From NCBI GenBank assembly GCA_019235885.1, contig JAFAKB010000070.1:1-62499 (forward strand): DNA of 62,499 nucleotides, given 5' to 3'. Below the pieces are notes generated by a model, which saw only the letters and a list, made by a program, of their open reading frames with translations, was not told the origin of the DNA and searched no databases. The stretch's first letter is position 1, and each line of letters begins with the position of its first letter. A program made the translations under genes and the position numbers. The stretch is from Candidatus Eremiobacterota bacterium (lineage in GTDB: Bacteria; Vulcanimicrobiota; Vulcanimicrobiia; Vulcanimicrobiales; Vulcanimicrobiaceae). Positions 32,060 through 59,781 of this stretch are shown piece by piece.

Positions 32060-32722
32060 ATGCAGCAAACGGTATGGAAGCGCGCGAAACCGCGGCTCGC
32101 GCTTCTCGGCGGCGAACCGGGCGCGCGCAACGAGGTTGCGCCCGCACTTGCACTCGACTTCGAGCTGTGCGCGTTCGAGGGCGCGCGCCCGCCGCAGGCG
32201 CTGCTGCTGTTCGGCACGCCGGCGACGTTCCGCGAGGCGCTGCTCGACCTGCGCGCGCGCAGCGACGTGCCGGCGCTGCTGATCCTCGACGAAGCGGGGC
32301 CGGCGGACCGTATCGACGCGCTCGAGCACGGCGCCGACGACGTGCTGGTGCAGCCGGTCGACGCCCCCGAGCTGATGGCGCGGCTGCGCGCGGTGATCCG
32401 GCGCGTCGTGCGCCCGGCACCGAGCGTGCTGCGCGCCGGCGACATCGAGATCAACCTCGATTCCTCGTCGGTGCGGCGCGGCGCGCGCGAGGTGGCGCTC
32501 TCGCCGACGGAGTTTTCGCTGCTGACCGTGCTCGCGCGCAGCAACGGCGCCGTCGTTCCGCGCGCGCGGCTGATCGACGAAGTGTGGGGCTCCGAGCGGC
32601 AAGCCTCCGCGACGACGGTGCACACCTTCGTCTCGTACCTGCGCGCGAAGCTCGGCGACGCCGGCACGGCGCCCGTCGTGCGCACCGTGCGCGGCGTCGG
32701 TTACGCGCTCAACGTCGGGTAG
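32060..32722 (+). CDS. OmpR-type regulator with inactive receiver domain
   Basis: A 220-aa transcription factor. The C-terminal winged helix (residues 122-220) is intact: REVALSPTEFSLLTVLARSN, RLIDEVWGSE, TVHTFVSYLRAKLG, VRTVRGVGYAL. The N-terminal receiver-like half has lost its chemistry. The strand that should end in the phosphoacceptor Asp reads QALLLFGTP, the Thr/Ser strand is PALLILDEAG, and the switch lysine before Pro is glutamine (LVQPVD). It is therefore unlikely to be phosphorylated and no kinase is adjacent. Control by abundance, dimerisation or a ligand is more likely. ATG 32060; structured repeat copy 2 follows 5 bp after the stop. Confidence 0.82.
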   Translation: MQQTVWKRAKPRLALLGGEPGARNEVAPALALDFELCAFEGARPPQALLLFGTPATFREALLDLRARSDVPALLILDEAGPADRIDALEHGADDVLVQPVDAPELMARLRAVIRRVVRPAPSVLRAGDIEINLDSSSVRRGAREVALSPTEFSLLTVLARSNGAVVPRARLIDEVWGSERQASATTVHTFVSYLRAKLGDAGTAPVVRTVRGVGYALNVG

Positions 32723-51728: not shown

Positions 51729-52838
51729 ATGGAGACGTTCGTCAAGCCGCAGGTCGGCGCCGGAGCGCGAGCGCTCGGCGCACCGTGGTACCGTTCAGCG
51801 GAGGTCTTTGCGGCGGAGCGCGAGCGCATCTTCGCGCGCGACTGGATCTGCGTCGGCCGCGCCGAGCAGGCCGAACGCGCCGGCGACTTCTTCCTCGCCG
51901 ACGTCGCGGGCGAGTCGCTGATCGTCACGCGCGGCGAGGACGGTGAGCTGCGCGCGTTCTACAACGTCTGCCGCCACCGCGGCACGCGCATCTGCACCGA
52001 GCGCCGCGGACGGTTCGGCGGCTCGATCCAGTGCCCGTACCACGCCTGGACGTACGCGCTCGACGGCGCGTTGTTGGCAGCGCGCACGATGGCCGACGTG
52101 CCGGGGTTCGAGCGCGCGGGCTATCCGCTGCACCAAGCCGCGCTTGCGGCGCTCGACGGCTTCGTCTTCGTCTCGCTCGCCGCCGAGCCCGAGCCGTTCG
52201 AGCGCGCGTTCGCGCCGCTGCTCGGGCGGTTCGCGCGCTGGCGGATCGGCGCGCTGCGCACCGCGCGCACGATCGAGTACGAGCTCGCCTGCAACTGGAA
52301 GCTCGTGTTTCAAAACTACTCGGAATGCTATCACTGCCCGCTCGTCCACCCGCAGCTCGAGCGGCTCTCCCCGTCCGAGAGCGGCCGCAACGACTTGAGC
52401 GAAGGCCCGTTCCTCGGCGGCTACTCCGAGCTGCGCCGCCACGGTACGAGCCTGACCGCCAGCGGCACCACGGCGCGCGCGCCGCTCGGCGAGCTGTGCG
52501 GCGCGGATCTGCACCGCGTCTACTATTACACGATCTTTCCGTCGCTGCTGCTCAGCCTGCACCCGGATTACGTGATGGCGCACTACGTCGAGCCGCTCGC
52601 GGCGGACCGCACGCGGATCGTCTGCGGGTGGCTGTTCGATCCGCTCGCCGCCGCCTCGCCGGAGTTCGATCCGAGCGACGCGGTCGGCTTTTGGGACGTG
52701 ACCAATCGCCAAGACTGGCGGATCAACGAGCTGACGCAGCTCGGGATCGGCTCGCGGGCGTACGAGCCCGGGCCGTACGCGAACGCGGAAGGGCTGCTGG
52801 CCGCGTTCGACCGCCACTACCTGGCCGTCATGCGCTGA
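51729..52838 (+). CDS. Rieske non-haem iron oxygenase, large-subunit type
   Basis: Aromatic-ring-hydroxylating-dioxygenase-type oxygenase of 369 aa. The Rieske 2Fe-2S domain has CRHRGTRIC (C81, H83) and CPYHAW (C102, H105). The catalytic domain has the iron site NYSECYHCPLVHPQL with two His ligands and a later Asp (DVTNRQDW region). Relatives act on choline, carnitine, glycine betaine or aromatics, and the motif spacing resembles the choline/betaine group as much as classical dioxygenases. No ferredoxin or reductase gene is adjacent. ATG 51729 begins the conserved part. Confidence 0.88.
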   Translation: METFVKPQVGAGARALGAPWYRSAEVFAAERERIFARDWICVGRAEQAERAGDFFLADVAGESLIVTRGEDGELRAFYNVCRHRGTRICTERRGRFGGSIQCPYHAWTYALDGALLAARTMADVPGFERAGYPLHQAALAALDGFVFVSLAAEPEPFERAFAPLLGRFARWRIGALRTARTIEYELACNWKLVFQNYSECYHCPLVHPQLERLSPSESGRNDLSEGPFLGGYSELRRHGTSLTASGTTARAPLGELCGADLHRVYYYTIFPSLLLSLHPDYVMAHYVEPLAADRTRIVCGWLFDPLAAASPEFDPSDAVGFWDVTNRQDWRINELTQLGIGSRAYEPGPYANAEGLLAAFDRHYLAVMR

Positions 52839-52861: not shown

Positions 52862-52912
52862 AAAAAAATCCCGCGAGCTTCGCCGGGGGTTGACCCACCG
52901 GCGAGCCCGCGG
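52862..52912 (-). terminator. Intrinsic terminator read on the minus strand
   Basis: On the minus strand a hairpin of about 15 bp with a small bulge (arms 52898-52912 and 52871-52886, an inner GGG/CCC pair in the loop) is followed by a run of seven T (52868-52862). It could end a minus-strand small RNA or the more distant transcript of the peptide-binding lipoprotein gene. Confidence 0.7.
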
Positions 52913-52976
52913 TCGTGTTGACGAACGCGAGCCCGACACGTTGCTCCGTCCCTCACCACGAGGCCGTACACCCGTC
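52862..52976 (-). ncRNA. Candidate small RNA behind 11-bp direct repeats
   Basis: Proposed transcript of about 115 nt. It starts roughly 7 nt after the CACAAT box (52983-52988) and ends at the T-tract after the strong hairpin. The -10-like box has no -35 box but lies 10 bp after the last 11-bp repeat unit, the spacing at which PhoB-type activators replace the -35 element. No convincing reading frame was seen in it. This is an inference from layout; expression data are needed. Confidence 0.4.
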
Positions 52977-52998
52977 GAACCGATTGTGCAAGGCGCGA

Positions 52999-53038
52999 CT
53001 TACGGCGCGCTTACGGAAACCTTATCAACCGCTTACGG
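52999..53038 (-). promoter_or_regulatory. Four 11-bp direct repeats, OmpR/PhoB-type binding site
   Basis: Read on the plus strand the 7-bp units CTTACGG, CTTACGG, CTTATCA and CTTACGG start at 52999, 53010, 53021 and 53032, exactly 11 bp apart, each followed by a 4-bp spacer. A 7+4 arrangement in direct repeat is the geometry of Pho boxes and related winged-helix regulator sites, although the sequence is not the enterobacterial one. The minus-strand -10-like box sits 10 bp beyond the array. Confidence 0.6.
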
Positions 53039-53053: not shown

Positions 53054-53097
53054 GTGTGCGGCGCTCACCCCCTGCAAGCCTGTGTGCGGCCACTCAC
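53054..53097. repeat. Pair of 15-bp near-identical repeats
   Basis: GTGTGCGGCGCTCAC at 53054-53068 and GTGTGCGGCCACTCAC at 53082-53097, 28 bp apart start to start. Both begin GTG and end CAC. They could be a second regulator site next to the 11-bp array; meaning unknown. Confidence 0.4.
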
Positions 53098-53140: not shown

Positions 53141-54763
53141 TTAGATCGACCACGTGTAGGCGTTCCACCACGGCGCGGCGACCGGCGCCGGGTCGTAGCC
53201 GTGCAGGTCGTCGTTGAAGACCGACGGGCGCCGCTGGCGGTAGAGCGGCAGGTACGGAACGAGATCGTGCACGCGCCGGCCGATCTCGCGGTAGATCGCC
53301 GCGCGCCGCCGCGGATCGTCGGTCGCGAGCCCGGCGCGCTCGAGCGCGTCGACGCGGCGGTCGCAGAACCGCGACTCGTTCTCGCCCTTCGGCGCCAGCT
53401 CGCCGCACGCGAGGGTGCTGGTCGAGTCGGGATCGTACGGCAGCGTGTTCGCGAACACCGCTAAGTCGAAACGCCCGTTCACGATCGGGCCGTCGAACGC
53501 GAAGATGCCCTTGTACGGGTACGGTTTGATCGTCAGCTCGATCCCGACCTCGCGCAGCATCGCCTGCACTTGCACCGCGACCAGCGGTGCCAGGCCGGTC
53601 GGCCCGATCACCATCACCAGGCTGAGCCGGGCGCCGTTCTTGGTGCGGATCCCATCCCGTCCGGTGCGCCAGCCGCTGCGCTCGAGCAGCGCGCGCGCCG
53701 CTACCGGATCGTGCGGATACGGCGCGTTGTTCGCGAACCCGAGCGAGGTGGGCGGGACGATGTCGCGCGCCGGCAGCGCGGTGCGGTACGTGAGCTTGTC
53801 GATCAGCACCGAGTAGTCGATCGCGCGCGCGAGCGCGCGCCGCACGTTCGGATCGCGCAGCGCGGGCCGCGCGTCGTCGAGCATCAGCAGCAGCTCGGAG
53901 TTCCAATCGGTCAGCGTCGCGCGAACGCCGGGCAGCGCACGGAGCTCGTCGTAGATCAGCGCGTTCGCGGCGACCGGCATGTCGATCTCGTGCGTGCGCA
54001 GCGCCGTCGCGACGGTGTTCATGTCCGGCATGATGGTGAGCTCGATCCGCCGGAGCTTCGGCCGTCCCTTGAAATAGCGGTCGTTCGCGGCGAGGACGAT
54101 GCGGTGCCCGCGCTCCCAGGCGACGAAGCGGAACGGACCGCTCCCGACCGGCTGCGCGTTGAACGGCGCGTCGTTGATTTCGGGAAGCCCGTCGAGCAGG
54201 TGCGCCGGGACGACCGGCTTCGCGCCTTCCTGCAGCGTGGTGAAGAACTGGGTGACGAACGGCGGGTAGCGGCGTTTCAAGTGCACGACGACGGTGCGCG
54301 GGTCGGGCGTCTCGATCCGCGCGACCTCTTGATAGCCTTCGCGGTGGAGGACGTTGTTGCGCGGGTTGACGATCGCGCGCCAGGAGAAGGCGACGTCGCG
54401 CGAGGTCAGCGCGGCGCCGTCGTGCCAGCGCACGTTCGGCCGCAGATGGTACGTGTACGTCTTGCCGTCGGGCGAGATGCCGCCGTTCGCGAGCGACGGC
54501 ACCGCGGTCGCCAGATCGCCGATCGGCCGGCCGTGCGCGTCGGCGATCACCAAGTACGAGAAGAGCAGCGAAGAAAGATCGTAGCTCAAGTCCATCGTCG
54601 AGAGCAGCGGGTTCAGCGAGTCGGGATCGGCGACGTCGGCGATGCGCAGCACGCCGGGACGCGTCCACGGATGCCGACCGCCCACCGCGGCGTCGTGCGC
54701 CGGCGTGCAGGCGCCGAGCGCGAGCAGCGCGCCGAGCGCGAGCGCTGCGCACGTCCGTCTCAA
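53141..54763 (-). CDS. Peptide/oligopeptide ABC transporter substrate-binding lipoprotein
   Basis: Family 5 extracytoplasmic solute-binding protein of 540 aa. The lipoprotein signal ends LALGAC (Cys about residue 19). Typical motifs are ADPDSLNPLLSTMD, ISPDGKTYTYHLRPNVRWHDG, PFNAQPVGSGPFRFVAWERG, IMPDMNTVATALRTHEID and RRALARAIDY. It would deliver peptides or similar ligands to an ABC importer, but no permease or ATPase genes are adjacent. TTG 54763 overlaps the stop of the upstream barrel gene (TTGA) and gives the normal signal peptide. Pairing an outer-membrane barrel with a binding protein suggests an uptake route (inference). Confidence 0.85.
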   Translation of the reverse strand: MRRTCAALALGALLALGACTPAHDAAVGGRHPWTRPGVLRIADVADPDSLNPLLSTMDLSYDLSSLLFSYLVIADAHGRPIGDLATAVPSLANGGISPDGKTYTYHLRPNVRWHDGAALTSRDVAFSWRAIVNPRNNVLHREGYQEVARIETPDPRTVVVHLKRRYPPFVTQFFTTLQEGAKPVVPAHLLDGLPEINDAPFNAQPVGSGPFRFVAWERGHRIVLAANDRYFKGRPKLRRIELTIMPDMNTVATALRTHEIDMPVAANALIYDELRALPGVRATLTDWNSELLLMLDDARPALRDPNVRRALARAIDYSVLIDKLTYRTALPARDIVPPTSLGFANNAPYPHDPVAARALLERSGWRTGRDGIRTKNGARLSLVMVIGPTGLAPLVAVQVQAMLREVGIELTIKPYPYKGIFAFDGPIVNGRFDLAVFANTLPYDPDSTSTLACGELAPKGENESRFCDRRVDALERAGLATDDPRRRAAIYREIGRRVHDLVPYLPLYRQRRPSVFNDDLHGYDPAPVAAPWWNAYTWSI

Positions 54764-58210: not shown

Positions 58211-58879
58211 GTGCGCATCCTCGTGGTCGAAGATCAGCGCGAGATCGCGGACGCGATTCGTGCGATGCTCGAGCGCCGTAAGTACGCCGTCGACGTCGCG
58301 GCCGCCGGCGAGAGCGGCTACGACATGCTGCTGCGCGGAACGTACGACGCCGCCGTCGTCGACGTGGTGCTGCCGGGCCGCGACGGCTTCGCGATCTGCC
58401 GCGAGGCGCGCGCCGAAGGGATCGCGACGCCGGTCCTGTTCCTGACCGCGCGCGACGCGGTCGAAGACCGCGTGCGCGGCCTCGACGCCGGCGCCGACGA
58501 CTACTTGGTGAAACCGTTCGTCGAGGACGAGCTCGCCGCGCGGCTGCGCGCGCTGCTGCGCCGGGCCGCGCTGCCGATCCACGCGACGCTCGAGGTCGGC
58601 GATCTCGTCGTCGACCGCGGCGCGCGCGCGGTGCGCGTCGCCGGCCGTGAGGTTCCGCTCGGCGCGACCGAGTTTCGGCTGCTGGAATATCTCGCGGCGA
58701 ACGCGGGGATCGCCGTGACGCGCGCGCAGATCCTCGAGCGCGTGTGGGGCGACGACTTCGACGGCTCGAGCAATGTCGTCGACGTGTACGTCAGCGCGGT
58801 GCGCAAGAAGCTCGCCGCGGTCGGCGCGCGCGACCGCATCACCACCGTGTGGGGAGTCGGGTACTCATTGCACGCGTAG
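58211..58879 (+). CDS. OmpR-family response regulator
   Basis: A 222-aa two-component regulator with an intact receiver: acidic pair in VVEDQ, phosphoacceptor D51 in VVDVVLP, T79 in FLTAR and K101 in LVKPF. The winged helix follows (EVPLGATEFRLLEYLAANAG, ILERVWGDDFDGSSNVVDVYVSAVRKKL, GVGYSLHA). The GTG start at 58211 gives MRILVVEDQ. It overlaps the kinase gene and is divergent from the SCO1 gene, which is a likely target (inference). It resembles copper-responsive CusR-type regulators only in general layout. Confidence 0.92.
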   Translation: MRILVVEDQREIADAIRAMLERRKYAVDVAAAGESGYDMLLRGTYDAAVVDVVLPGRDGFAICREARAEGIATPVLFLTARDAVEDRVRGLDAGADDYLVKPFVEDELAARLRALLRRAALPIHATLEVGDLVVDRGARAVRVAGREVPLGATEFRLLEYLAANAGIAVTRAQILERVWGDDFDGSSNVVDVYVSAVRKKLAAVGARDRITTVWGVGYSLHA

Positions 58880-59781
58880 TCGCGCGGCTGTGCGCGTCGT
58901 ATCTCGCGATCCTGGTCGTCGTGCTGCTCGTGCTGGACGCGCTCGCGTTCTGGTATCTCGCCGGCCGCGACCGCGATCTGATGCAGCCGCTGCTGACGAC
59001 CGAGGTCGGGCAAGCCGCGTACGCCGCGGCGCTGCGCCGCAACGCGCTCGGCCTCGCGCTGCTCGACGTCCCGCTCCTGCTCGCCGCCGGCGCGGCGTCG
59101 TACGCGCTCGCGGTGATCTCGGTGCGTCCGCTGGTCGAGGCGCGCGAGCGGGAGGCGCGCTTCGCCGCCGAGGCGGCGCACGAGTTGCGCACGCCGCTGG
59201 CGCGAATCGCCTCGCTCGCCCAGAGCGCGCGCGCCGCGACCGGCGAAGCGGCGCCCGGCGAAGCGTTCGACAAAATTTGCGCGCTCGCGCTCGACGCGTC
59301 GGGGACGATCAGCGATCTGCTCGCGCTGGTGCGCGAAGAGCGGGTCGCGCCGAAGCTCTCCGAGCCGGTCGAGCTGGGCGCGCTCGCGCGCGCCTCGGTC
59401 GCCGCCGCGCAGCGCGACGGCTTGAGCTACGACCTCGCGGCGGGCGAAGAGTGCTGGGTCGAGGGCGACGAGCGGCGGCTTCGGCGGCTCGCCGAGAACC
59501 TGCTCGACAACGCGAACCGGCACGCGCGCGCCCGGGTCCGCGTGGCGGTGCGGCCCGACGGCCGCGCGGTCGCGCTCAGCGTCGAGGACGACGGCCCGGG
59601 CGTGCCGGCCGAGCTGCGCGAGCGGATCTTCGAGCGGTTCGTGCGCGGCGACGACGACGAGCGCGGGAGCGGCCTGGGGCTGGCGATCTGCCGCGCGATC
59701 GCGCGCGCGCACGGCGGCGACGTCGTCCTCGAGGGCGAAAGCCGGTTCGTCGCCCGGCTACCGCGGTTCGAGCCGGTGTGA
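58849..59781 (+). CDS. Sensor histidine kinase
   Basis: Inner-membrane kinase of 310 aa, partner of the preceding regulator. There are two membrane helices (about residues 14-37 and 63-88) with only a 25-residue periplasmic loop, so sensing is probably in the membrane or of a small ion. The HisKA box AAHELRTPLARI has the phosphorylated His at residue 111. ATPase motifs are ENLLDNANRHA (N box), VEDDGPGVP (G1) and GSGLGLAICRAI (G2). There is no HAMP of normal length between helix 2 and HisKA. GTG 58849 is chosen, overlapping the regulator by 31 bp; ATT 58864 is the only closer option. Confidence 0.88.
   Translation: MGSRVLIARVVARLCASYLAILVVVLLVLDALAFWYLAGRDRDLMQPLLTTEVGQAAYAAALRRNALGLALLDVPLLLAAGAASYALAVISVRPLVEAREREARFAAEAAHELRTPLARIASLAQSARAATGEAAPGEAFDKICALALDASGTISDLLALVREERVAPKLSEPVELGALARASVAAAQRDGLSYDLAAGEECWVEGDERRLRRLAENLLDNANRHARARVRVAVRPDGRAVALSVEDDGPGVPAELRERIFERFVRGDDDERGSGLGLAICRAIARAHGGDVVLEGESRFVARLPRFEPV

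Follow-up and report, generated by a model that had tools for sequence, protein, structure and literature searches.

Small RNAs with a promoter of their own are found in the 3' region of mRNAs or between convergent genes. The binding sites of SARP activators are heptamer direct repeats with 4-bp spacers, the heptamer of PimR being CGGCAAG (PMC5930380), and SARP promoters have a poor -10 box located 8 bp from the repeats (PMC10936776). The Pho box is made up of two 11-bp direct repeats (PMC3978041). For the largely uncultured phylum studied here promoter architecture and regulators are little studied, and a literature search turned up no paper on either.

The element in question lies between two convergent genes of the window, i.e. 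the whole stretch of 62,499 nt of Candidatus Eremiobacterota DNA that was analysed. The best named relatives of the Rieske protein likewise place the genome with a Candidatus Eremiobacterota species. On the plus strand a Rieske/ring-hydroxylating oxygenase alpha-subunit gene (51729-52838, stop at 52838; Pfam PF00355 and PF00848) ends outside the unit, and on the minus strand the gene of an SBP_bac_5 solute-binding protein (53141-54760, start approximate, stop at 53141; Pfam PF00496 and ORF) flanks it upstream on the same strand. Read on the plus strand the units are CTTACGG at 52999, 53010 and 53032 and CTTATCA at 53021. The minus-strand order is CCGTAAG-CGGT-TGATAAG-GTTT-CCGTAAG-CGCG-CCGTAAG, followed by TCGCGCCTTG (10 bp) and CACAAT at 52988-52983. 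Sequence reading gives CCGTAAG, a motif found genus-wide, for unit 1 (53032-53038, the most distant from the -10 box), unit 3 (53010-53016) and unit 4 (52999-53005, 10 bp upstream of the -10 box), and TGATAAG for unit 2 (53021-53027). The initial annotation had described four 7-bp units at an exact spacing of 11 bp; the spacing stands and three units are identical, but the remaining one, unit 2, is degenerate and agrees at 4/7 positions. The 10-bp gap, the CACAAT box and the subsequent hairpin with seven Ts, all placed on the minus strand, were confirmed by reading the sequence, with the hairpin beginning about 70 nt past CACAAT.

This layout resembles that of the Streptomyces SARP promoters (AfsR/afsS and PimR/pimM), where heptamers with an 11-bp period stand upstream of the -10 box and there is no usable -35 box. 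The window array likewise consists of heptamer direct repeats with 4-bp spacers, and CCGTAAG matches the PimR heptamer at five of seven positions. The distance from the repeats to the -10 box differs, being 10 bp instead of 8 when CCGTAAG is taken as the unit, the borders of which are not experimentally fixed. The SARP systems further belong to another phylum, and no SARP is tied to sites of the window class. Promoters of the OmpR/PhoB family are similar in that tandem 11-bp sites adjoin the -10 box and replace the -35 box, but the motif here differs from the phylum's own Pho box and no CGTAAG class array was found near the response-regulator genes checked. With the small RNAs mentioned above the locus shares a predicted promoter of its own, a structured RNA of about 100 nt, an intrinsic terminator and a position downstream of a same-strand gene; unlike known small RNAs it has no sequence relative in Rfam, where no family was found for the region and a relaxed threshold gave chance-level matches only.

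We suggest, with a probability of about two in three, that the minus strand carries a small but complete transcription unit here, which is controlled by an OmpR-fold activator and most likely gives rise to a regulatory small RNA. From the layout we infer an OmpR-fold binder, a site that is in use, the exact transcript ends and a regulatory role of the RNA. The activator, a winged-helix protein whose DNA-binding domain is of the OmpR/PhoB/SARP type and whose sites are specific to the genus, would bind the four tandem CCGTAAG-N4 half-sites, stand in for the -35 box and recruit RNA polymerase to the CACAAT -10 box (52983-52988). Transcription would then start near 52976, as predicted from a start about 7 nt past the -10 box, and stop at the hairpin and T7 near 52862, so that the product (52862-52976) would be a structured RNA of about 115 nt without a complete ORF.

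The evidence for the promoter comes mainly from comparison within the genus. Within this genus (Ca. Eremiobacterota), 11 genomes together gave 28 matches to CGTAAG-N5-CGTAAG against 2 for the reversed-pattern control, whereas the rest of the family sample, outside the genus, gave 10 against 34 and hence no excess; the motif is thus characteristic of the genus. Of the 33 distinct arrays, 26 have a BANNNT hexamer 10/11, 21 or 31/32 bp away, compared to a mean of 4.5 for shifted gaps, and with both the window and one recurrent locus with a Cys-rich gene excluded the phased hexamer was still seen in 14 of 21 arrays (3.8 for shifted gaps). The longer gaps (21 and 31/32 bp) correspond to one or two extra periods and are often filled by weaker units, e.g. 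CCGAAAT. When array and -10 pattern were searched jointly, allowing at most one mismatch, 22 sites were found against 4 in the controls, and the window site is among the four that match without any mismatch. The class is defined by two or more CGTAAG units spaced 11 bp apart, together with a -10-like hexamer 10/11 bp away or further off by one or two periods; the window site has such units, and its CACAAT lies at exactly 10 bp. These counts strongly support CCGTAAG arrays as a genus-specific activator-promoter class, defined in the present analysis, with a recurrent and phase-locked layout. Equally strong is the support for the prediction that the window array is a promoter-proximal activator site on the minus strand, with CACAAT as its -10 box.

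The array taken alone is only suggestive, because a first-order Markov model produced a comparable four-unit 11-bp array of any 7-mer in 5 of 60 simulated windows. The terminator carries more weight than the array alone. It occupies 52862-52912 on the minus strand, with the hairpin at 52912-52871 and the T7 run at 52868-52862, and its folding energy of -37.2 kcal/mol compares to a shuffle mean of -20.7 (z -5.8). Apart from this T7, neither strand of the 62.5-kb window has a run of six or more Ts. It should be noted that a standard scan of the region for sigma-70 promoters and terminators gave no match, since a layout of this kind is excluded by its demand for a -35 box and by the limits that it sets on loop and tail.

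The members of the class that we examined have a gene start close downstream, and these are generally protein genes. Most genus members carry one array between the end of a ROK-type sugar-kinase-like gene, identified as such from the peptide and not from a database result, and a small Cys-rich gene whose product (CDDCGHRASLHHLDGCRALLLGRG...CGC.TTLREILG) has no Pfam match (L050-L052, L054, L057, L058, L061, L064, L067 and L076). In most of them the GTG/ATG start of the Cys-rich gene lies 6-7 nt past the -10 box, making the gene near-leaderless. The genome of the window has its own copy of this locus (C11:23076), where a hairpin with T5 is positioned after the small gene. Other arrays of the same genome precede an FAD-binding oxidoreductase (C84:51052), a small exported-type protein that recurs in three relatives (C79:23968; G001, G007, G010) and a recurrent family without Pfam match (C77:1662; also in G003 and G010). 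Further targets are a TonB-C-type protein, an Rce1-like protease and a LuxR-type ATPase regulator. The array at C30:20549 of this genome is also without a clear nearby gene; only a weak hairpin precedes its T run, and its -10 box is off the standard phase. Of the 42 arrays listed, the window's alone has a strong hairpin with a long T run in the next 340 nt and no ORF between. In one relative two array promoters stand 380 bp apart on one strand (G005:C11:56226-56638; L225, L231), with an ORF of about 100 aa after the first.

Downstream of the window promoter, the annotation had noted about 100 nt without a gene. We predict a non-coding transcript of about 115 nt, and from its predicted start to the T run there is no ORF that has both a start and a stop. 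The RNA from box to terminator folds better than all of 200 shuffles (z -4.4), and folding predicts a 5'-proximal stem-loop at 52914-52960. At the level of sequence, then, there is a candidate promoter and an intrinsic terminator enclosing a segment within the range of about 50-300 nt, while conservation, which is a supporting rather than a strictly defining property of small RNAs, was not found in the relatives searched. As the predicted RNA of about 115 nt folds well and contains no complete ORF, a small RNA is the best reading, and the small RNA gene proposed by the annotation is to this extent supported by inference.

The main rival to this interpretation is a decayed promoter whose gene has vanished. 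The site would be a true member of the class, the short transcript, if made at all, would be functionless and the terminator would belong to the solute-binding mRNA. We regard this as rather unlikely. In its favour, protein genes are what almost all of the other class members drive, hence a member leading to an RNA only would be unusual; the region is not conserved, unit 2 is degenerate, and the hairpin follows the solute-binding gene on that gene's strand. A decaying promoter is, on the other hand, at odds with the match to the full promoter consensus without mismatch and with an RNA that outfolds every one of its shuffles.

As for conservation, the expectation that relatives would share these features holds for the array with its -10 box, which recurs genus-wide, but not for the array-box-hairpin unit at this locus. 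When 60 genomes were searched with the 321-bp region, the others gave no homologue, only short weak matches. The unit is absent in G008, the sole relative with the same convergent gene pair (L078/L104), where the 3' ends of the Rieske and solute-binding genes overlap and leave no intergenic space. The Met-Arg-stop end that the window and some other relatives have is missing from the Rieske protein of G008, which has acquired a short tail whose coding sequence is antisense to the neighbour gene. Because the Rieske ORF has lost this end and runs into the solute-binding gene, the missing gap in G008 is apparently a deletion, a single comparison that does not date the element. We also considered a small mobile insertion in the gap between the stop codons and rejected it, as G008 fits a deletion better and no second copy of the region was found in the genome.

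Another possibility would be a small protein of leaderless type, starting at the GTG at 52971 and yielding a 47-aa peptide. This GTG is 11 nt past the -10 box, and class promoters of the genus often place a GTG 6-7 nt past it, as in the recurrent Cys-rich gene. However, the 47-aa ORF has no stop before the T7 run, spans the hairpin and ends at 52828 inside the Rieske gene, and we find this alternative very improbable.

Returning to the small RNA reading, we looked for the regulator that might act on the array. The genome has nine strong Trans_reg_C matches, mostly response regulators, and encodes several Trans_reg_C+BTAD proteins, none of them linked to array sites. Autoregulation was rejected as a route to the regulator, as the Trans_reg_C genes that were checked had no class CGTAAG array within 1.5 kb and none was found near the SARP-type genes that we looked at; in the 1.5 kb scan the PhoB locus showed a Pho-box-like match. 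The C81 SARP, the only one tested, was discarded as candidate, having close relatives in G008 and G005 and only a distant one in the array-bearing G006. An array-controlled gene of the sister species G003 was considered as a Trans_reg_C protein and turned out from its sequence to be a LuxR-type ATPase regulator instead. Here the CCGTAAG-class promoter, with its array at 1232 of C55 (L211), precedes a large regulator gene, which hints at a regulatory cascade. The window itself holds two Trans_reg_C genes (58211-58880 and 32480-32715), neither with an array, and a histidine-kinase-like gene after the first.

The annotation had seen the layout of a PhoB/OmpR-activated gene. An activator-dependent promoter on the minus strand is strongly supported by the genus-wide layout and spacing, but PhoB specifically is not. 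In the phylum, CTTAA-type 11-bp arrays are found before or between pst-type genes (pstS, pstC and pstB, identified by our own reading of the peptides), reading toward the gene (G000 C86:47333-47358 (L028); also L018, L019, L024 and L025). On this comparison the CTTAA arrays are the cyanobacteria-like Pho box of the phylum, distinct from the CCGTAAG class. The window array is not of this type, its CCGTAAG motif being the one that reads toward the promoter. PhoB is thus disfavoured, and the least likely regulator, because the pst genes of the phylum have a separate Pho box, and SARP-type activators would seem to fit as well as response regulators.

The array could in principle be a Pho-type box on the plus strand, read in the CTTA orientation and driving an RNA antisense to the solute-binding gene, as the pst-linked arrays of the phylum show CTTAA when read toward the gene. 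Against this, it is on the CCGTAAG strand that -10 boxes in phase with CTTACGG arrays are found in the genus, and the plus strand here shows no convincing phased -10 box and no gene; the Pho-box reading was rejected on the phase statistics, and we consider it most improbable. Least credible of all are chance repeats between convergent genes combined with a read-through terminator, for although simulated windows do hold comparable arrays, the exact motif is enriched in the genus and phase-locked to -10 boxes, so that chance is largely refuted by the genus statistics.

Further, we speculate that the genus may have evolved a regulon of its own, in which an OmpR-fold (possibly SARP-type) activator acts through phased CCGTAAG heptamers and which in this species includes a dedicated small RNA; this wider proposal is tentative and somewhat doubtful. 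The comparison nevertheless gives a testable activator-promoter class, with a defined heptamer, period, distance to the -10 box and target genes, separates it from the CTTAA-type Pho box, and flags one member as a small-RNA candidate. If the wider proposal is true, no activator-controlled small RNA has to our knowledge been predicted in the phylum before this one, and it would be an example of SARP-like promoter architecture outside Actinobacteria. Directly upstream of the array we also observed an imperfect direct repeat, GTGTGCGGCGCTCAC / GTGTGCGGCCACTCAC, at 53054-53068 and 53082-53097 of the window, which is perhaps the site of a second regulator.
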